NCBI RefSeq assembly: GCF_014203395.1
Contig: NZ_JACHIW010000002.1
Span: 1,984,001 to 2,048,000, forward strand
Reading direction: 5' to 3'
Length of the DNA: 64,000 nucleotides
Source: Saccharopolyspora phatthalungensis
GTDB lineage: Bacteria > Actinomycetota > Actinomycetes > Mycobacteriales > Pseudonocardiaceae
Shown here: positions 30,826-40,751 of the stretch, piece after piece
Position numbering within the stretch: the first letter of the stretch is position 1
How the letters are laid out: each line of letters opens with the position of its first letter
Program-made: the position numbers and the translations under genes
Notes under the pieces: generated by a model
The model's input: the letters and a program-made list of their open reading frames with translations, nothing else
What the model was told of the DNA's origin: nothing
Databases searched by the model: none

Positions 30826-31763
30826 CGCCCCTCCCCAGCACAGATCTGATGCCACATGGCCAGCCGTCAAGCCGCCGAAACCAGACCAGCTGAACAGGAC
30901 GATTTTACCCCGCAGCACGGTGAAAGCGCACCGCGCCGATACGCTTGGGGATCGTGCTCAGAACCTGATCATATGGCGGGAACTGCCCGACGAGGTGGCT
31001 AACGTGTCCCATGTGACGCATGGGGTTCTGGACCGATGCCCGAGACGTGTTGGTGGACCGGTCACCGGTACCGGGCCGACTGGGTCTGAACAGTGTCGTA
31101 GTGGATGGCTCGCGCTATGGCGTCTTCGGGATGCTTCTGTGGAAATCAGTGGAGGCTCACGAGAAACCGGCCCGCGCCGAGACGCGGATCAGCCAGCGCC
31201 GTTCTCGGCCGCCTGGGTTCGCGCCCCCAGTTCCCGCAACGCGACTTCCGAGACATCACCACTGCACTAAGCCTCGCACAGTCCCAGAACGTCGCCGTCC
31301 CTCTGTCCGAAACCCGCGTGACAGTCTGCCAAAACGCCCTCAACACACCGTGATTAGCGGGCGCCGACAACCAGGATCAGTCCGGAAATCGCGCACTACC
31401 TCACGCAGACCACCGAAGCCTCACTACTGCGCTGAACCGGATCTGCCAAGGTCCACATCGGTCACCGATTCAAGCGCCATCTCTGCGGGATCGCGAAATC
31501 ACGCCGCGATATGGCCGACTTTAGGCATCACAAATCGGAAACGAGGGCCGCCGCCCCGCTCCACGGTCATACCGCCGACTCGATCACGTGCTTAAAGCTG
31601 CTGACCCCGACTTGATCTGAGGCTGTCGCATCGGGTTCGTACGGTCTCGGCCCCCACTTGGGGATTAGGCCACTCGGTTACACACGGTGTACGCCTGGCT
31701 GCGCGTGCAATAAAGTGGATTAGCAATCCGAACGGTCGATCGAAAGCGTCGAAGGAGAATGTC
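30826..31763. other. Long gene-poor interval
   Basis: About 940 bases with no reading frame that I can support. A frame at 31020 begins plausibly ('GFWTDARDVLVDRSPVPGRLGLNSVVVDGSRYGVFGMLLW') but turns into Arg/Pro-rich sequence, so it may be a gene relic. Composition is less GC-rich at its right end, where the promoter of the peptide gene should lie. Confidence 0.45.
31679..31691 (+). promoter_or_regulatory. Inverted repeat TACAC-ACG-GTGTA upstream of the peptide gene
   Basis: A perfect 5-base inverted repeat with a 3-base spacer lies about 75 bases before the 59-residue peptide gene. It could be an operator. An AT-richer stretch (GCAATAAAGT, about 31707-31716) after it may include the -10 box. 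Confidence 0.35.
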
Positions 31764-31943
31764 ATGTCCGCTCCAGCGAAAACTCAAACCGGCGGTGTCT
31801 CGGCAGTGCCAGCCGAGCCAATGACGATCGACGCTCTTGCTGGTGTGGTGTCCCGGACATTGCAGCAGGACGGCATGGACCGGATGACGAACAAACAGGT
31901 TGAGGAGATCCTCTCCGTCCCGGCGCTAACCGGGCACATCTGA
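31764..31943 (+). CDS. 59-residue peptide gene preceding the PP-loop ATPase
   Basis: A canonical GAAGGAGA ribosome-binding site sits five to six bases before ATG 31764, and the gene ends 33 bases before the PP-loop ATPase start. The peptide has a small-residue, Ala/Pro/Thr-rich N-terminus ('SAPAKTQTGGVSAVPAEP'), a mid-section likely helical ('TIDALAGVVSRTLQQDGMDRM'), and ends '...EILSVPALTGHI'. No Cys is present. I recognise no family. Its size and position suggest a substrate or carrier for the downstream enzymes, for example a modified peptide precursor, but that is inference; a small regulatory subunit is the alternative. Confidence 0.65.
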   Translation: MSAPAKTQTGGVSAVPAEPMTIDALAGVVSRTLQQDGMDRMTNKQVEEILSVPALTGHI

Positions 31944-31976
31944 GGCGACCGGCCGCGACTCCGCACGGAGGATCTT

Positions 31977-33200
31977 GTGATTACCTGGGGGCGCGTCAAC
32001 CTGCTGTTCTCTGCTGGTTCGAGGCCGATCAAGGCGGCCGACGAACTGTCGCTGGACGAATTGCTATTGGCGAACCGACTGCCTCCCTCGCTCTTCCAAG
32101 CGTACGAGGTACCTGGCGACGGCAGCCTCCGGCCGGTCCCGATTACCACTACCCTTAGCGCGGTGCCCAACGAGCACAAGGTGATCTTGCAGTGCATCCG
32201 CAACACCGACGTAGACAGCCTGCGGGCCAACACTTTCGAAACGCACGAACGTGACCCGCTACCGGTCGCCGCGATGTTCGATTTCCAGTATGGCAAGGCC
32301 GACGCCGCCAACCGCGTGCACCTGGTCGATGATCACACGCTTCGTCAGGTCGTCTCCGCAAAGGTCGCGGCATTCCTTTCCCAGCACGACATCGCCCCGC
32401 CGATCGTCGCCGGGGTCTCCGGTGGCGGCGACAGCAACACCCTCGTGCAGGGCATCCGCCAGCATCTGGAGCCCGGTTCTCGCCATGCCGAACAGGTCGT
32501 GTGCTTCACACTGGTCATGGACCCGATCTGGCCCGAGTCAGCGGCCGAGCGGGCAGGCGAGCTCTGCGCCGAAGCCGGCTTTCAGCACCGGGTGATGTAC
32601 GCCGAGGACATCGCGGAACTGCTTGGCATGAACGGATCGCCGGTCGAACTATGGCACGAGTTCGCCGCCCAGCACGGCCCAGATACCTCGCACTTCTTTG
32701 GAACGTTTCTGATCAACCTGGTCGGGCGACGGATCTGCGACCAGATCAACAGCCAACACCTCCTGCTCGGCTACAACCGCGAAGACGTCCTGGCCGAACT
32801 TCTGTTCTGCCTGATCAACGGGCGTCGGCCGATGGCCTTCCCGCTGCGCCGCATGAACGCGGTCAACTGTGTGCTGCCGGTATGGGATGTCCCCAAGGCG
32901 ATTCTCGACGCCTGCTACCCGCAATACAGCGAGAGCAATTACGCCGAACGCGTGGACACCACTACTGCCCAGCGATCCTCGATCTACTTCATCGCGCACT
33001 GCGTGGACGCTCTCGTGCCCCAGCTCTCCATCTCGCTAATGCAGGGCATCGCGCGATTGATGGACGACCTCGATGGCTGGCAAACACTGTTCCCGATCGC
33101 CGGCACGCCCCTGCTGCGCACCGGCCAGGGTGAAGACCTGTCCGAAGCCGAGGTGCTGGCGATGTTGCGCCGGTTCTTTCCCTCCTGGCAACTGACCTGA
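31977..33200 (+). CDS. PP-loop ATP pyrophosphatase-type enzyme
   Basis: 407 residues. An N-terminal ~135-residue domain ('VNLLFSAGSRPIKAADELSLDELLLANRLPPSLFQAYEVPGDG...VILQCIRNTDVDSL') is followed by an ATP pyrophosphatase domain with PP-loop S148-G-G-G-D-S-N, 'ITDQI'-like helices ('GRRICDQINSQHLLLGYNREDVLAELLFCLINGR') and 'FPLRRMNAVNCVLPVWDVPK'. Enzymes of this superfamily adenylate a carbonyl or carboxyl group: tRNA lysidine synthetase, thiouridylases, asparagine synthetase and lasso cyclases. 'LLGYNREDVLAE' is closest in style to the TilS/TtcA tRNA-modifying branch ('GHHADD'). The N-terminal domain is unlike TilS. GGAG lies six bases before GTG 31977. Acting on the small peptide or on tRNA are both possible. 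Confidence 0.8.
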   Translation: MITWGRVNLLFSAGSRPIKAADELSLDELLLANRLPPSLFQAYEVPGDGSLRPVPITTTLSAVPNEHKVILQCIRNTDVDSLRANTFETHERDPLPVAAMFDFQYGKADAANRVHLVDDHTLRQVVSAKVAAFLSQHDIAPPIVAGVSGGGDSNTLVQGIRQHLEPGSRHAEQVVCFTLVMDPIWPESAAERAGELCAEAGFQHRVMYAEDIAELLGMNGSPVELWHEFAAQHGPDTSHFFGTFLINLVGRRICDQINSQHLLLGYNREDVLAELLFCLINGRRPMAFPLRRMNAVNCVLPVWDVPKAILDACYPQYSESNYAERVDTTTAQRSSIYFIAHCVDALVPQLSISLMQGIARLMDDLDGWQTLFPIAGTPLLRTGQGEDLSEAEVLAMLRRFFPSWQLT

Positions 33201-33261
33201 TCGTGGAGCGACCCCGACCCGTCACAATGAGCATCTAACCCGCTACCAGGAGGATGTATTC

Positions 33262-34563
33262 ATGCCGCAGGTCGTCGAGCCGCCATCGGGTACCAGGGAC
33301 TTTCTGGCTGACGAGGTCCGCCGCCGCAGGGCGGCGTTCGACACGATCAGCGCGGTGTTCGAGCATTACGGCTTCGACCCGGTGCAGACCCCGGCGTTCG
33401 AACGCCTGGAGGTCTTCGCGGGCAAGCTCGGCGACGAGGCAGCCAAGCTGATCTTCAAGATCCTCAAGCGCGGCGTGCACGAGGCAAGCGGCGAAGCCGA
33501 CCTGGCACTGCGCTACGACCACACCGTCCCGCTGGCCCGGGTCGTGGGCACCTACGGCAGCCGCTTGCCCTCCCCGTTCAAGCGGTATGCCATCGGCAAC
33601 GTCTGGCGGGCCGACCGCGCGGCCAAGGGACGCTTCCGCGAATTCGCCCAATGCGACATCGACACCGTGGGCTCCTCATCCCGTCTGGCCGATGCCGAGA
33701 TCCTGTGGGCGATCAACGAAGCACTCCAGGCACTGGGCATCGGCGACTTCCGGTTCCTGGTCAACAGCCGCCAGGCGCTGCATGGGTTGCTGGAGGCATA
33801 CGGCATCGCACCCCAACTCGGTCTTGATGTGCTCTGCAGTCTGGACAAGCTCGACAAAACCACCCCGGAGGCGGTGACCGCCGAACTCACCGACCGCGGC
33901 CTGAGCAGCGACACCGCCGAGAGCCTGGTCACCGACGTGACCTCACCCGACACCGATCGCGTACGCAAACAGCTCGACACCACCGAAAGCGGCAGGCGGG
34001 GACTCTCCGAAGTGGACCGGCTGCTGAGCCTGACCACCGGCCTGCCCGAGGGACGCGTGGTCTTCACCCCCCGGATGGTCCGGGGCCTGGACTACTACAC
34101 CGGCCCGATCTTCGAAGTCCTCGCCGAGGGTTACCCCGGATCGATCGCCTCCGGCGGACGCTACGACGGACTGGTCGCCAAGCTCGGCGGCCCCGACCTG
34201 CCCGCCTGCGGCGGCTCCATCGGCATCGAACGCATCCTCGCGACCCAGCAAACCAAGGCCACCACAACACGCGGACTGGATGTCGCCCTGACCGTCCTGG
34301 GAGCCGAAGACGACATCATGCGACTGGCAGCCCACATCCGCGAACACGGCCTGCGGACCGGCATCTACCTCGGCAGCTCCACCAAACTGGCCAAACAACT
34401 GAAATGGGCCCACGATCAGCACGCCCGCCACGTGCTGATCTACGGCCCCGACGAGCAGGCAACCGGCGAGGTCACCGTGCGCGACATGGACACCGGCGAG
34501 CAGACCCGCCTACCCCTCGCCGACACCGCGGCCTATCTTCGGGACAGGCACGCGACCAGATAG
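33262..34563 (+). CDS. hisS: Histidyl-tRNA synthetase
   Basis: 433 residues, near full length for class II HisRS. Motif 1 region 'PPSGTRDFLADEVRRRRAAFDTISAVFEHYGFDPVQTPAFE', motif 2 'FKRYAIGNVWRADRAAKGRFREFAQCDID', the histidine-binding signature 'GLDYYTGPIFEV', and motif 3 'GGSIGIERI' are all present, plus an anticodon-binding domain ('TVLGAEDDIMRLAAHIREHGLRTGIYLGSSTKLAKQLKWA'). AGGAGG precedes ATG 33262 by eight bases. Located 61 bases after the PP-loop gene in an accessory region, it may be a second, specialised or self-resistance copy, though I cannot see the rest of the genome. A terminator follows. Confidence 0.93.
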   Translation: MPQVVEPPSGTRDFLADEVRRRRAAFDTISAVFEHYGFDPVQTPAFERLEVFAGKLGDEAAKLIFKILKRGVHEASGEADLALRYDHTVPLARVVGTYGSRLPSPFKRYAIGNVWRADRAAKGRFREFAQCDIDTVGSSSRLADAEILWAINEALQALGIGDFRFLVNSRQALHGLLEAYGIAPQLGLDVLCSLDKLDKTTPEAVTAELTDRGLSSDTAESLVTDVTSPDTDRVRKQLDTTESGRRGLSEVDRLLSLTTGLPEGRVVFTPRMVRGLDYYTGPIFEVLAEGYPGSIASGGRYDGLVAKLGGPDLPACGGSIGIERILATQQTKATTTRGLDVALTVLGAEDDIMRLAAHIREHGLRTGIYLGSSTKLAKQLKWAHDQHARHVLIYGPDEQATGEVTVRDMDTGEQTRLPLADTAAYLRDRHATR

Positions 34564-34569
34564 CACCCC

Positions 34570-34602
34570 GCCCTCGGGTCCGATTCAATCGATCCCGAGG
34601 GC
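34570..34602 (+). terminator. Terminator after hisS
   Basis: GCCCTCGGG (34570-34578) pairs with CCCGAGGGC (34594-34602); the pairing extends into the loop with two mismatches. It follows the hisS stop by six bases and closes the peptide/PP-loop/hisS unit. Confidence 0.8.
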
Positions 34603-34754: not shown

Positions 34755-35075
34755 TCAGCCTTGGTAGCCGGCTGGTCTGAAGCGGAAGACCTGGGCCCTG
34801 CCTTCTTTGCCCTGCCCCATCATCGCGACAATCCTCGGCTGGGACGCCATGCTGAGCGCCGCGCCGTCCACATCGGACTTTGTCCGGACGGTACCGTCGA
34901 CGTAGGCGCGCGCTCCAGCGAGACGTCGTGGACGAACAATGTGGCGTGGAACGTGTCGGAGCGCAGCCTCGACGCTGGGGCTGTTCACGATGTTCTCCGC
35001 GCGAAGCTGGTCGATCAGGTCGGAGCGCAGTTGCTCGGCTAACGGTGCTGGGCGGCTGTCGCTGACGGTGGTCAT
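34755..35075 (-). pseudogene. N-terminal remnant of a PIMT-like methyltransferase
   Basis: 106 residues. 'LAEQLRSDLIDQLRAENIVNSPSVEAALRHVPRHI...AYVDGTVRTKSDVDGAALSMASQPRIVAMM' matches the N-terminal region of PIMT-like methyltransferases of peptide-maturation loci (the 'FxLD system' type and similar). The expected 'LEQLD...VLEIGTGTGYNAALL' SAM-binding domain is absent: after 'AMM' the frame reads 'GQGKEGRAQVFRFRPAGYQG' and stops. So only the substrate-side helices remain, and no methyl transfer is expected. It is convergent with the hisS unit, about 190 bases away, and could have belonged to the same peptide system. Confidence 0.65.
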
Positions 35076-36811: not shown

Positions 36812-38965
36812 TCAGGTTCCGCAGGGGTCGGTGGCGTTGATCAACCGCCAGGTCGTGGAGTCCGCCCACCGGTCATGTTCGCGCTGCAGTAGATCCCGGT
36901 GCCTGCCGGGCAGGCTGTCGCTCACCCGTGCCAGGGCGGTGTCGAGCTCGGCGCGCAGCTCGGCGAGGAGCCGCTCGGCCAGCGCCGCGCACCGGTTGTT
37001 CAGCTCGTCGGCCCGGTCCGGGAGGGTGTCGGTGTGGGTTGCGGCGTCGATCATGGCGCCGAGCAGCCGGTAGCCGACGGCCTTGATGGTGCGGCGCGCC
37101 TCGCGGACCAGGGCGTATGGTCGGCTGTCGAGGACCTTCTCCAGGCTTTTGAGGGTGTAGTCCAGGGCGAAGTTGCGGTCGATCCACAGCTGCGCCCAGT
37201 GCGAGGCCACGCCGATGCGCCAGTCGGCGAACCGGGCCTGGACCCGGCCCAACGCCGGGTCGACATCCCCGGTGAGGCCAGCGGCTTCGGCCTTGCGGGT
37301 GTAGGCGGCGCCGATCAAGCATTCCATCGACACGAGCATGTAGCTGATGCCGGTGTAGAACGGGCGGCCGGTGGTGCGCTCGGCCACCCAGTCCTCGTCC
37401 CGGACCCCGTCGACGATCTCCTCCACGCCCAGATCGCGCTGCGGGCGCAGCAGCAGATCGGTGCGGCCCTGGAAGGCGTAGGTCTGCTGGAGCTCGTCGA
37501 GGGTCATGAGCTGGTCGAAGGTGATGTAGGTGAACCGGGGCGGCACCCCGAGCGCGGTGAGGGTGCGGATGGCCAGCGCGTTCTGGGTGCCGGTGGTCTC
37601 CTTGTTGAACCGCTCCAGGATCGAGGTCACGCCGGATTCGACGCCGAACAGGCAACGCCGCAGCCCGCGCTCGACCAGGCCGCGCCACAGGTGGCCGCGT
37701 TCGATGTGCCAGGCCCGGTCGTGGTCCAGCCGCACGGCCTGGTCGACCCGGCAGGAGGTCTCCCACTGGAATCCGGCCTCGTGGAGGGTGTCGGCGACCG
37801 CGAGGGTGCGCGATACCGCGGCCGGGCCGCGGCCGATGAACTCCTCGTCCACCAGGTACAGGGTCCGGCTGACGTGCGGGTGCTGGTCGGCGATCGCGCC
37901 GATCTCGGTCAGAATCCACGGGAGAGCTTCCGGTGCCGTGCCTGCCCACTGTCCTTTGTGGTCACGGGGGCAGAACGAGCAGTAGTTGGTGCAGCCCCGG
38001 CTCGTTTCCAGTTGGGCGACTCCGTTGTGGACGAAGGTGCGGTCCAGCAGGTCCAGCTCGGGCCACATGTCGGTTTGCAGCCGGTTCGCCACGACGGCGC
38101 TGCGCCGCCGTGGCCCGATGGACAGCGTGCCCTCGCCGCGGGCTGCACCGGCGTAGCCCGCGCCGCGGATGTGCTGCACCGCGATGTCGTCGTGCCAGTG
38201 CGAGAGCACGTCGGCGATGGTGGGCTCCCCCGCACCGCGGCCGATGATCAGGTTCGGGTAGCGCTCCAGCAGGATGCGCTCGTTGCGGACGGTGAGGCTG
38301 CCGCCCGCCACCACCAGAGGCGGTCGCTCCGCACTGGTGATCTCGTCCAGCAGGCGGGTCATCAGGTCGTGCTGGCCGAAGGTCGCCGAGATCCCCACGA
38401 TGTCGGTCTCGCCGGTTCCGATGCGGGCGAGGATGTCCTCCAGGGATACGCCGAGCTGCATGTCCATCAGCTCGACGTGGCCAAGCAGCGTGGCGCGGGC
38501 TGCCCGTGCGAGATCGGAGATAGCCAACGGAAAGCGCGGCAGCGGGAAGTTCTCCGGGTGGTACAGCGAGGCCAGCAGCAGCCGTGGCCGCAGCAGCCGA
38601 TGTCGACCTTCTAGGGTGATCTCCGCAGCCGAGAGCCAGCTGTCCGGGTCGCTGATCGTGATGTAGTCGCCCACCCAGGTCGGCCATTCGCGGGTACGGT
38701 GCGGCTGCCCGGAAAGGTCGGCAACGGTCCAGCCGCCGGCCAAGCCGCCGCCAAACTCGTGTTCGATCAGCACCAGCCGCCGATCCAGGGTTCCGGTCAC
38801 TACCACCATTCGCCCGTTCACACAGTCGCGGAGCGCGGCCTGGACGCGGTCCGATTGCGCCAGCGGCGCTGACCACAGGGGGCTGTCGACCGCGGGCATG
38901 GTGTCGGTGACGTGCGCGACGGCGTGGACGAGCCGATCACGTGGGGACAGGCGCAGATCGCGCAT
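36812..38965 (-). CDS. B12-binding-domain radical SAM enzyme
   Basis: 717 residues. The N-terminal ~300 include a Rossmann-like domain typical of cobalamin-binding radical SAM proteins ('DIVGISATFGQHDLMTRLLDEI', 'PPLVVAGGSLTVRNERILLERYPNLIIGRGAGEPTIADVL'). The radical SAM cluster motif is C325-T-N-Y-C329-S-F-C332, after 'QLETSRG'. 'LYLVDEEFIGRG', 'FQWETSCRVDQ' and 'LFGVESGVTSILERFNKETTG' then form the TIM barrel. The ~200-residue C-terminus is helical. No B12 'DxHxxG' motif is evident, so cobalamin dependence is uncertain. GGAGG precedes ATG 38965. It heads the operon with the aldo/keto reductase and CYTH genes. The substrate is unknown. Confidence 0.88.
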   Translation of the reverse strand: MRDLRLSPRDRLVHAVAHVTDTMPAVDSPLWSAPLAQSDRVQAALRDCVNGRMVVVTGTLDRRLVLIEHEFGGGLAGGWTVADLSGQPHRTREWPTWVGDYITISDPDSWLSAAEITLEGRHRLLRPRLLLASLYHPENFPLPRFPLAISDLARAARATLLGHVELMDMQLGVSLEDILARIGTGETDIVGISATFGQHDLMTRLLDEITSAERPPLVVAGGSLTVRNERILLERYPNLIIGRGAGEPTIADVLSHWHDDIAVQHIRGAGYAGAARGEGTLSIGPRRRSAVVANRLQTDMWPELDLLDRTFVHNGVAQLETSRGCTNYCSFCPRDHKGQWAGTAPEALPWILTEIGAIADQHPHVSRTLYLVDEEFIGRGPAAVSRTLAVADTLHEAGFQWETSCRVDQAVRLDHDRAWHIERGHLWRGLVERGLRRCLFGVESGVTSILERFNKETTGTQNALAIRTLTALGVPPRFTYITFDQLMTLDELQQTYAFQGRTDLLLRPQRDLGVEEIVDGVRDEDWVAERTTGRPFYTGISYMLVSMECLIGAAYTRKAEAAGLTGDVDPALGRVQARFADWRIGVASHWAQLWIDRNFALDYTLKSLEKVLDSRPYALVREARRTIKAVGYRLLGAMIDAATHTDTLPDRADELNNRCAALAERLLAELRAELDTALARVSDSLPGRHRDLLQREHDRWADSTTWRLINATDPCGT

Positions 38966-39043: not shown

Positions 39044-39361
39044 TCATGTCGGGCTGCGGGTAGTGCGCGCGAGTTCGTGGCGGGAGCTGCCGGGGTGGTG
39101 AGGCGCGTCGACGTGGGACGCGTGGAACAGGCCCGGACATGGCCAGCACTGAGCAGCTGCATTCCGATCAGGCTCACCCCACCAGGCACTGCTTCTGGCC
39201 GCCCGCTCCGGCGTTCGGAAGCGCAGGCTGGAGCATGCCGTGCCGACCGGTCGGGGCACGATCGGCACGGCAGGGGCTTGGACTCGTTCCGACATGGCCA
39301 GCGTGCGTGGCGCGCGCGGATGGTCCGGTCGCGCTTCTTGCGCGTCCGTGATCACGGTCAT
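39044..39361 (-). CDS. Possible small gene upstream of the radical SAM operon
   Basis: A 105-residue frame with GGGAG five bases before ATG 39361 ends 78 bases before the radical SAM gene. The product is Arg/Pro/Ala-rich ('PIVPRPVGTACSSLRFRTPERAARSSAWWGEPDRNAAAQCWPC') and has no recognised family. Third-position GC is high in the first half and falls in the second, so coding status is doubtful. It may be the 5' leader region of the operon. Confidence 0.3.
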   Translation of the reverse strand: MTVITDAQEARPDHPRAPRTLAMSERVQAPAVPIVPRPVGTACSSLRFRTPERAARSSAWWGEPDRNAAAQCWPCPGLFHASHVDAPHHPGSSRHELARTTRSPT

Positions 39362-39515
39362 GGCCGCTCCCGTTCGCTGGCGGGCTGGAACGATCTCTCC
39401 GCGTCACAGCCGGGATCACGCGGAGTGGTCATTTCCGCACGTTAGGTGCGACCGATGTGGCGAACCGGGAGGAATTCTCTGGGGCCGTTGCCGTCGGAGC
39501 TGGGAGGTTAACCCC

Positions 39516-40751
39516 GTGCGAGGGATGACCGACGACATGACGATCGGTGAGCGCGTGGCGTTCTACCGGCAGCGGCGCGGTCTGACCCAGACCGTGCTGG
39601 CCGGACTGGTCGGCCGCAGCGAGGACTGGTTGCGCAAGGTCGAGCACGAGGTGCTCCCACTGGACCGGCTGTCCGTGCTGCGCAGATTGGCGTTCGCCTT
39701 GGACATCTCCCTCGGGGACCTGATCGGCGAGCCGGTGCTGATGGCCTGGGCCGACGAGTCCGGTCGCCGCACCGTGCCCGCGCTGCGGGTGGCGCTGATG
39801 GACCACCGCCAGTTCCTCTCCGGCCCGCAGCCAGGCGAACCGCCCCGTTTGGACGCGCTGGCGGCCGAGATCGCCGCGCAGTGGGGCGACTACCAGAACT
39901 CCCGCTACGCCCGCCTGACCCAGCGCCTCCCGCTGCTGATCACCGACGCTCAGGCCGCCTGCCAGCACCATGGGCGGGGCAGTGACGACGGGCTGCGCGC
40001 GCATGCGCTGGCCGCCAGCGCCCACCAGCTGGCCACCGCGTTCCTGACCAAGCTCGGCGAGGCTGACCTGGCGGCGATCTCGGCCAGCCGCGGCCTGGCC
40101 GCCGCCCACACCAGCGGCGACGACCTCATGATCGGGTCGCTGTACCGGTCGGTGGCGCATGCCCTGCTGTCGATCGGCGAGTTCGAGCAGGCGGTCGCGC
40201 TCGCCCGCGCCGCCGCCGACCATCTCGAACCTGGCCTCGGCGACGCGACTCCGGAGTACCTATCGGTGTACGGGATGCTGCACCTGGTCGGCGCGGTCGC
40301 CTCGTCCCGCCGCGAGGATCGCGCCGACACCACCACTTTCCTCACCGAAGCCGACAAGGCCGCGACCCGGCTCGGCCACGACGCCAACCACATGTGGACC
40401 GCATTCGGCCCCACCAACGTCAACGTCCACCGCGTCACCGCCGCGATGGAACTGGGCGACGTCCAGGTCGCCGTCGACCTCGGCCCCCGCATCGACACCC
40501 ATGCTCTGCCTGTCGAGCGCCGGGTCCGCCACGCCATCGAGACCGCCCGCGCCTACGTCCGGTGGAACCGTGCCAACGACGCCCTCACGCTACTGCTCGA
40601 CGCCGAGCAGTACGCCCCCGAACAGGTCCGCTACCACCGACTCTCCCGCATCCTCGTGCGGGAGATGATCAGACTCCCGCGGCCCGCGGGCCACGCCATC
40701 GAGCTCGCCTACCGCATGGGCGTGCACGGCACCGACCCGCGCCGACCGTAA
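39516..40751 (+). CDS. XRE-family regulator with TPR-like C-terminal domain
   Basis: 411 residues. A helix-turn-helix occupies residues ~8-60 ('IGERVAFYRQRRGLTQTVLAGLVGRSEDWLRKVEHE...LDRLSVLRRLAFALDISLGDL'). The remaining ~340 residues are Ala-rich tandem helices of TPR type ('LRAHALAASAHQLATAFLTKLGEADLAAISASRGLAAAH', 'VRHAIETARAYVRWNRANDALTLLLDAEQYAPEQV'). Such regulators sense peptides or metabolites in actinomycete gene clusters. GTG 39516 is chosen: GGAGG (39503-39507) lies eight bases upstream; ATG 39525 is an alternative. It is divergent from the radical SAM operon, which it may control, and followed by the YdcF gene. Confidence 0.88.
   Translation: MRGMTDDMTIGERVAFYRQRRGLTQTVLAGLVGRSEDWLRKVEHEVLPLDRLSVLRRLAFALDISLGDLIGEPVLMAWADESGRRTVPALRVALMDHRQFLSGPQPGEPPRLDALAAEIAAQWGDYQNSRYARLTQRLPLLITDAQAACQHHGRGSDDGLRAHALAASAHQLATAFLTKLGEADLAAISASRGLAAAHTSGDDLMIGSLYRSVAHALLSIGEFEQAVALARAAADHLEPGLGDATPEYLSVYGMLHLVGAVASSRREDRADTTTFLTEADKAATRLGHDANHMWTAFGPTNVNVHRVTAAMELGDVQVAVDLGPRIDTHALPVERRVRHAIETARAYVRWNRANDALTLLLDAEQYAPEQVRYHRLSRILVREMIRLPRPAGHAIELAYRMGVHGTDPRRP

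Follow-up and report, generated by a model that had tools for sequence, protein, structure and literature searches.

Why should a complete second histidyl-tRNA synthetase (HisRS2) stand behind the genes for a 59-residue peptide and a PP-loop enzyme? The arrangement occupies positions 31,764–34,563 of the window, as we call the whole 64,000-nucleotide stretch of the Saccharopolyspora phatthalungensis genome that was analysed (contig NZ_JACHIW010000002.1, positions 1,984,001–2,048,000, forward strand; genome of 8.54 Mb, 99.4% complete). All three genes read in the + direction and have good ribosome-binding sites. Upstream of the PP-loop gene, the peptide frame is kept in bacteria ranging from actinomycetes to members of the candidate phyla radiation (CPR), and where an extra synthetase is encoded alongside, the penultimate residue of the peptide, here called position -2, matches its type. 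It is possible that the cassette is a pathway resembling those of RiPPs (ribosomally synthesized and post-translationally modified peptides), in which the product mimics the adenylate of a given amino acid and inhibits the synthetase for that amino acid, the extra synthetase providing immunity. We give this reading a probability of about one half.

Conservation of the Peptide Gene

The peptide gene (31,764–31,943, +; ATG start; ribosome-binding site AAGGAGA at 31,752–31,758) encodes the 59-residue sequence MSAPAKT...GMDRMTNKQVEEILSVPALTGHI, of which the C-terminal half is conserved, and appears precursor-like from its open reading frame (ORF) and its homologues. A first, sequence-only reading of the locus had described this ORF and its strong ribosome-binding site as they are found here, and the pairing of the peptide with the PP-loop gene that it had envisaged holds elsewhere. 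Among the 18 genomes with a close PP-loop gene and an adjoining HisRS2-type gene, the window genome counted, the peptide lies just upstream of the PP-loop gene in 17 (one locus per genome: the window, L007, L008, L010–L019, L121, L122, L148 and L149). Omitted from the locus counts were L025, a short contig that begins within the enzyme gene, the decayed loci L146 and L147, and repeat views of the same genomes, e.g., L123 (of L008) and L005 (of L056, Lentzea aerocolonigenes). A small ORF with the same tail is also present upstream in the four CPR loci of this branch (L020–L023) and in the six loci with glutamine at -2, or Gln-type loci (L024, L026, L027, L028, L056 and L070); in L027 and L056 it does not adjoin the enzyme gene and is found approximately 0.6–1.1 kb upstream, depending on the gene start. 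With the peptide as query, tblastn detected 12 distant loci, upstream of the PP-loop gene, with E-values of 8e-11 to 3e-6, and gave weak matches (1e-4 to 0.7) in the Gln-type loci and in three of the four CPR loci. Because the frame is found upstream in 17 of 18 genomes, the co-location of peptide, enzyme and HisRS is not due to chance.

The peptide gene is real. When 13 of the 17 peptides were compared across their 28 final codons, the nonsynonymous rate was below the synonymous rate (dN < dS) in 69 of 72 computable pairs (78 pairs in total), and the differences at codon positions 1, 2 and 3 numbered 562, 370 and 936. In two close pairs compared along the whole peptide, dN/dS was 0.12/0.18 and 0.04/0.02; the clear signal is that of the conserved tail. 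No match to the window peptide was found in NCBIfam, PHROGs or PADLOC, and the one Pfam row was at chance level.

A further account of the locus would be an ordinary housekeeping TilS and hisS with a spurious small ORF, which would cover the PP-loop motif and the HisRS family match. It is refuted by the coding-type conservation of the peptide, by the score of the enzyme with the TilS model TIGR02432 (13.8 bits, far under the cut-off of 93.6), and by another HisRS in the window genome (C1:382346-383548), divergent and approximately 26% identical to HisRS2, so that the cassette copy is not the sole hisS. Since the peptide is conserved by the PP-loop gene, a second hisS exists and the enzyme is not a TilS, an undescribed peptide-modifying system is the best reading. 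The initial proposal had been a peptide- or tRNA-modifying system; its tRNA part is the less probable one.

The Residue at Position -2 and the Type of Synthetase

A profile built from the peptide alignment and run against 5.8 billion proteins gave 163 matches, of which the best 120 were read. Their residue at -2 was Q in 91, H in 15 (one of which, P0126, extends beyond the tail motif), N in nine, F in four and T in one. Together with 26 peptides from the loci, these 120 of 163 database peptides provided 63 distinct 16-residue ends, unfiltered. The near-fixed sites were Glu-13 (62 ends), Ala-3 (61), Leu-5 (61) and Ala-6 (59), some of this conservation being built in as the database peptides were found by profile. 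Position -2 took five kinds of residue in the 63 ends: Q in 31, H in 21, F in five, N in five and T in one. The window peptide ends in -Gly-His-Ile, the codon of His58 (31,935–31,937, +) standing at -2. This position is constant in the actinobacterial His group, where -1 can be I, F, Y or L. CPR tails carry F, H or T at -2, those of the His type being represented in the protein database by P0208, P0233, P0238 and P0239.

The match with the synthetase was established by combining the tails with tblastn searches of HisRS2 and of the CPR phenylalanyl-tRNA synthetase PheRS2 against all loci. All 17 loci with His at -2 have HisRS2 adjoining the enzyme gene (the L018 copy being frameshifted). With Phe, an extra single-chain PheRS2 is present beside the peptide/enzyme pair in three of three CPR loci (L020, L021 and L022). 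Neither HisRS2 nor PheRS2 was found in the six Gln-type loci or in the only locus with Thr (CPR locus L023). No GlnRS scored over the cut-off in the 13 genome handles searched (12 distinct genomes, including five of the six Gln-type genomes). Makers of a Gln-type product would then need no immunity copy, GlnRS being absent from the genomes searched; this absence is only consistent with synthetase-free Gln loci.

Equal size and source of the longest contig suggest further co-location. The Phe-type peptide P0231 and the PheRS P0245 would thus lie on the same 28,004-base contig, as judged by eye, and likewise the enzyme/PheRS pairs P0079/P0257, P0080/P0259, P0106/P0252 and P0111/P0246. Two pairs of equal size but different sources (P0091/P0353 and P0002/P0292) were dropped. 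The search for an independent His-type CPR locus brought none: 2 of 383 genomes matched (one at the known locus, the other weakly, at 7e-5), and further searches matched 1 of 2, 1 of 105 and 1 of 246 genomes, each time at the already known locus.

The Extra Synthetases

The HisRS2 gene (33,262–34,563, +; ribosome-binding site AGGAGG at 33,248–33,253) encodes 433 residues. It is the complete HisRS that had been noticed as the third gene: its TIGR00442 score is 347 bits for a hisS cut-off of 286.75, and motif 2, RGLDYYTG, motif 3 and the HGTP_anticodon domain are kept. Two or more hisS genes over the cut-off were found in 13 of the 14 HisRS-type genomes searched. The exception is the L018 genome, whose frameshifted cassette copy scores below the cut-off. 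HisRS2 has a near-fixed Asp118 in motif 2 (15 of 15) where 14 of 15 other hisS products have Glu, the fifteenth (L155) being itself HisRS2-like; a second near-fixed difference is Ala for Pro at position 16. Like mitochondrial PheRS, PheRS2 consists of one chain that carries an FDX-ACB domain at its C-terminus, and it is 30–32% identical to the other PheRS of the same genomes. The genomes of L020–L022 have two strong PheRS-alpha-type genes each and that of L023 one, weaker partial matches being omitted. Since such PheRS genes are common in CPR bacteria, it is the adjacency of PheRS2, not its presence, that constitutes evidence.

The synthetase might alternatively be a biosynthetic partner, HisRS2 or PheRS2 supplying a charged tRNA or an adenylate with which the PP-loop enzyme would couple or exchange a residue at the peptide C-terminus. 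The intact catalytic motifs and anticodon domain of HisRS2 are in keeping with such a role, as is the arrangement in the HisRS group, where the synthetase and enzyme genes adjoin and are codirectional. However, the peptide already encodes the residue at -2, so that none need be added; the Gln and Thr types do without an adjoining HisRS or PheRS; and PheRS2 of L020 is on the opposite strand. We regard this explanation as rather unlikely. The sequence-only reading had left the choice between a donor of His-tRNA and a resistance determinant, and the latter is favoured because the type of synthetase follows residue -2.

Other HisRS2-like genes were encountered. The stand-alone gene of L167 (610–2301, +) has a frame preceded by a zinc-finger stretch resembling, by eye, an RNHCP domain, and adjoins genes resembling asd and aspartokinase. 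L146 (510–1404, genome G989) and L147 (5384–6384, genome G785) are decayed cassettes in which only the last 60–70 enzyme residues and pieces of HisRS2 are left. The idea that they are remnants keeping immunity was dropped, and as enzyme and HisRS are both decayed, these loci are informative neither way.

The PP-Loop Enzyme

The gene of the enzyme (31,977–33,200, +; GTG start; ribosome-binding site GGAGGA at 31,967–31,972) begins 33 nucleotides past the peptide stop and encodes 407 residues. The motif SGGGDSN is at residues 148–154, both points as first noticed, and its SGGGDS part (residues 148–153; 32,418–32,435, +) does not vary in 35 aligned relatives. Structure prediction and fold search gave a model in which a ubiquitin-like (beta-grasp) domain (residues 1–86; 31,977–32,234, +) is joined to a PP-loop domain of the TtuA/NcsA type (residues about 90–406; 32,244–33,194, +), the closest fold. 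The N-terminal domain, already suspected to be unlike TilS, matched TtuB among other ubiquitin-like folds; in the model it runs into the PP-loop domain and has no free C-terminal Gly-Gly. Cys142 and Cys145 of NcsA, which together with a third cysteine hold a [4Fe-4S] cluster, align with H and G of the enzyme family profile, whose match to NcsA is weak (E 0.006). As the PP-loop residues are kept and this cysteine pair is not, adenylation fits better than thiolation.

The same fold could mean that the enzyme modifies a tRNA, like its TtuA, NcsA and TilS relatives, that the synthetase charges this tRNA, and that the peptide serves as a small regulator or subunit. This would leave the link between residue -2 and the type of synthetase unexplained. 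The cysteine pair is not conserved, and relatives adjoin dioxygenase, P450, carbamoyltransferase and amidase genes in the style of secondary-metabolite clusters. We consider tRNA modification quite improbable.

The distribution is patchy: matches were obtained in 3 of 100 genomes, a count that takes in the window genome and one match by a scrap only, and four relatives are on plasmids. Such patchiness and the compactness of the cassette would suit a module of the toxin-antitoxin or anti-phage kind, where the peptide, once modified, hits translation inside the producing lineage and the extra synthetase is the antidote. On the other side, none of the three window proteins has a PADLOC match, and no group-wide partner besides the synthetase was seen. 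This possibility seems to us very unlikely. A phage origin was also dropped: PHROGs gave no match for the peptide or the enzyme of the window (HisRS was not in this search), and 68 pattern matches in viral contigs yielded no confirmed relative. The window enzyme has no match to the QueC family of Pfam (PF06508); its distant relative P0113 matches QueC-like models weakly, including a QueC-like PHROG at 8e-6.

In a tree of 36 enzymes, to be read with a long-branch warning, the His/HisRS rows make up a single actinobacterial set with good support, those of Phe and Thr fall together within CPR, and the Gln rows stand apart.

A Putative Synthetase-Targeting Peptide

We propose a minimal RiPP-like pathway with target-based immunity. 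In this model, the 59-residue peptide is the precursor, which the enzyme would bind by its conserved C-terminal half and, using ATP, adenylate at the C-terminus around residues -2/-1. The payload left after proteolysis would stably mimic the adenylate of the amino acid at -2 (histidine in the window) and would block ordinary HisRS, both in competitors and in the producer itself. The foreign-type HisRS2 of the cassette would keep the producer alive. A peptide that targets a synthetase, with immunity through a copy of the target, accounts most economically for the residue match, at about even odds. An extended version would see a recodable class, with one enzyme family, a natural TtuB–TtuA-like fusion redirected from tRNA to peptides, a residue at -2 that picks the synthetase (His, Phe, Gln, Asn, perhaps Thr), and as guard a foreign copy, or none where the targeted enzyme is absent, as for Gln types lacking GlnRS; it is tentative, and we judge the odds to be somewhat against it.

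Several observations speak against the proposed pathway. Residue -2 is not C-terminal, and the model gives no account of the loss or use of the last residue. No further gene was recognized as common to the whole HisRS group (several shared clusters carry no identification), so that no dedicated exporter or peptidase was seen. In L018 the enzyme and peptide are intact and HisRS2 is frameshifted; in L019 the enzyme frame itself is split; in L009 the enzyme and HisRS2 are present but no peptide was detectable; and L023 has no synthetase among its scanned neighbours. The extra synthetases are not specific to the cassette. HisRS2-like genes are also found away from it, the other hisS of the L009 metagenome-assembled genome being HisRS2-like (77%) and alone beside probable asd and aspartokinase genes (by eye), and single-chain PheRS genes account for most of the 120 listed among 1936 PheRS2 matches. 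The closest solved HisRS, 6nhi, shares the motif-2 Asp, which is therefore no special mark of resistance and may be a mark of type rather than a resistance change. The argument from GlnRS is weak, because all 13 handles, of every type, were without it. Finally, the H group and the F group each come down to what is essentially a single clade, so that about two independent lineages, and not 20 loci, underlie the match.

If the model is true, a single codon of the precursor would reveal the target of a natural product not yet seen, and the neighbouring gene would provide a check. There would then be a family of translation inhibitors directed against HisRS, PheRS, GlnRS and AsnRS, including natural HisRS and PheRS inhibitors from actinomycetes and CPR bacteria. 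A tRNA-thiolation scaffold would have been reused as a peptide modifier, and CPR bacteria would possess a short pathway of chemical warfare. Even without the immunity reading, the peptide family and its enzyme span several phyla and are unnamed in the libraries searched.

Comparison with Known Systems

Microcin C7 is made from the peptide MccA by the ThiF-type adenylyltransferase MccB and targets AspRS. Its payload mimics an aminoacyl-adenylate (PMC12250964, PMC7916415). Besides such a payload, the cassette would share with it a short ribosomal peptide whose C-terminus is handled by an ATP-using enzyme, here a predicted one, and the link to a synthetase, whose identity here matches a residue of the tail. 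It differs in that the enzyme beside the precursor is of the PP-loop and not the ThiF/MccB type, and in that the precursor has approximately 46–66 residues instead of seven, the window peptide having no C-terminal Asn. Immunity would be a spare target and not MccE/MccF, and the residue varies between lineages.

The PP-loop fold is that of TtuA and archaeal NcsA and the N-terminal domain is predicted to be TtuB-like, but here the domains are fused in one chain, without the NcsA cysteine pair and, unlike the sulfur carriers TtuB and ThiS, without the free Gly-Gly end. Second-copy synthetases serve as self-resistance in other pathways, such as IleRS2 with mupirocin and SerRS with albomycin. The cassette likewise has a foreign-type extra copy beside a putative biosynthetic enzyme, but the target would be HisRS or PheRS and would be predicted by a residue of a gene-encoded peptide. 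PEARL (peptide aminoacyl-tRNA ligase) systems rely on a ligase of the LanB-like dehydratase family, and Pfam recognized no such family in any of the three window proteins. As in RiPP pathways generally, a gene-encoded, precursor-like peptide is conserved beside a putative modifying enzyme.

In QueC-family modifiers (QatC, type IV CBASS), a PP-loop enzyme is reported to have passed from nucleoside chemistry to the modification of protein ends (PMC13279940). These modifiers act on an N-terminal Gly motif, whereas here the conserved end of the peptide is the C-terminus, and the start is MSAPAK. Because it lacks a defining feature of each of microcin C, TtuA/NcsA, TilS, QueC and PEARL, the cassette is set apart as new. 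The existence of this set of peptide, enzyme and synthetase genes is firmly supported, and no description of the system was found in the literature covered, preprints and most subscription papers lying outside this scope, so that an unseen report is possible. Should the product prove to be an ordinary RiPP, the cassette would be more fairly placed within that known kind.

Neighbouring Genes and Distant Relatives

A hairpin ends the cassette at 34,570–34,602, with 16-nucleotide arms (34,570–34,585 and 34,587–34,602) that are 88% complementary. The closing terminator of the sequence-only reading can be recognized in it, except that no run of T follows. The inverted repeat said to precede the cassette was not recovered: no repeat with arms of at least 7 bases within 60 bases was found in 31,550–31,765.

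Genes of peptide-tailoring kinds are present near relatives (ATP-grasp, ThiF, APH-type kinase, TauD and P450). In five Nocardiopsis loci (L010, L011, L013, L016 and L017), HisRS2 is followed by a gene for an APH-type phosphotransferase; in CPR locus L023 such a gene comes after that of the enzyme. ATP-grasp genes were found near L018 and L022, and ThiF genes near L020 and L023. The window cassette itself has no APH-type, ATP-grasp or ThiF gene; the window ORF at 39,240–40,751, a candidate APH-type kinase by clustering, was discarded as it matches a helix-turn-helix model only. Upstream of two CPR peptides is a gene of the same cluster (L020, 6056–7621; L023, 4831–6351), the product of the former giving a weak match to PaaK-type acid-CoA ligases (52 bits versus 646).

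In the Gln-type loci L005/L056, L024, L026, L027 and L028, the PP-loop gene is followed by genes for a TauD-like dioxygenase, a cytochrome P450 or a carbamoyltransferase, varying with the locus; these clusters are larger versions of the cassette. A distant branch of the enzyme (approximately 25–31% identity; L029–L032, L036–L040, L042–L044, L050, L051, L053 and L055) is spread over actinomycetes (Streptomyces and others), Proteobacteria and Myxococcota. A conserved small peptide ending like ...ASKHGLEvICGaSCeTGAQ accompanies many of its members. Depending on the locus, the neighbours encode an M28 peptidase, an NAD_binding_9 flavoprotein, a PF01663 phosphodiesterase, an amidase, a luciferase-like monooxygenase, an aminotransferase, or enolase- and NDK-like products. 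They represent larger biosynthetic clusters without a name, in which the chemistry may be phosphonate-like. A third type of peptide, ending in ...LLRFRTCATDPITSW or ...LIRFRTCCADPRASK, adjoins a distant PP-loop relative in L069 (Geobacillus plasmid pGS18, 6589–8047) and L135 (7096–8364); on pGS18, methyltransferase, phosphorylase and major facilitator superfamily (MFS) genes are also nearby.

Just downstream of the window cassette, a 106-residue ORF (34,755–35,075, -) matches only the first 74 positions of the FxLD-system methyltransferase model TIGR04364 (59 bits, for a cut-off of 320) and is a fragment of another RiPP-type methyltransferase. Further on, a 717-residue B12-binding protein (36,812–38,965, -) weakly matches B12-dependent radical SAM families, RiPP C-methyltransferases among them.

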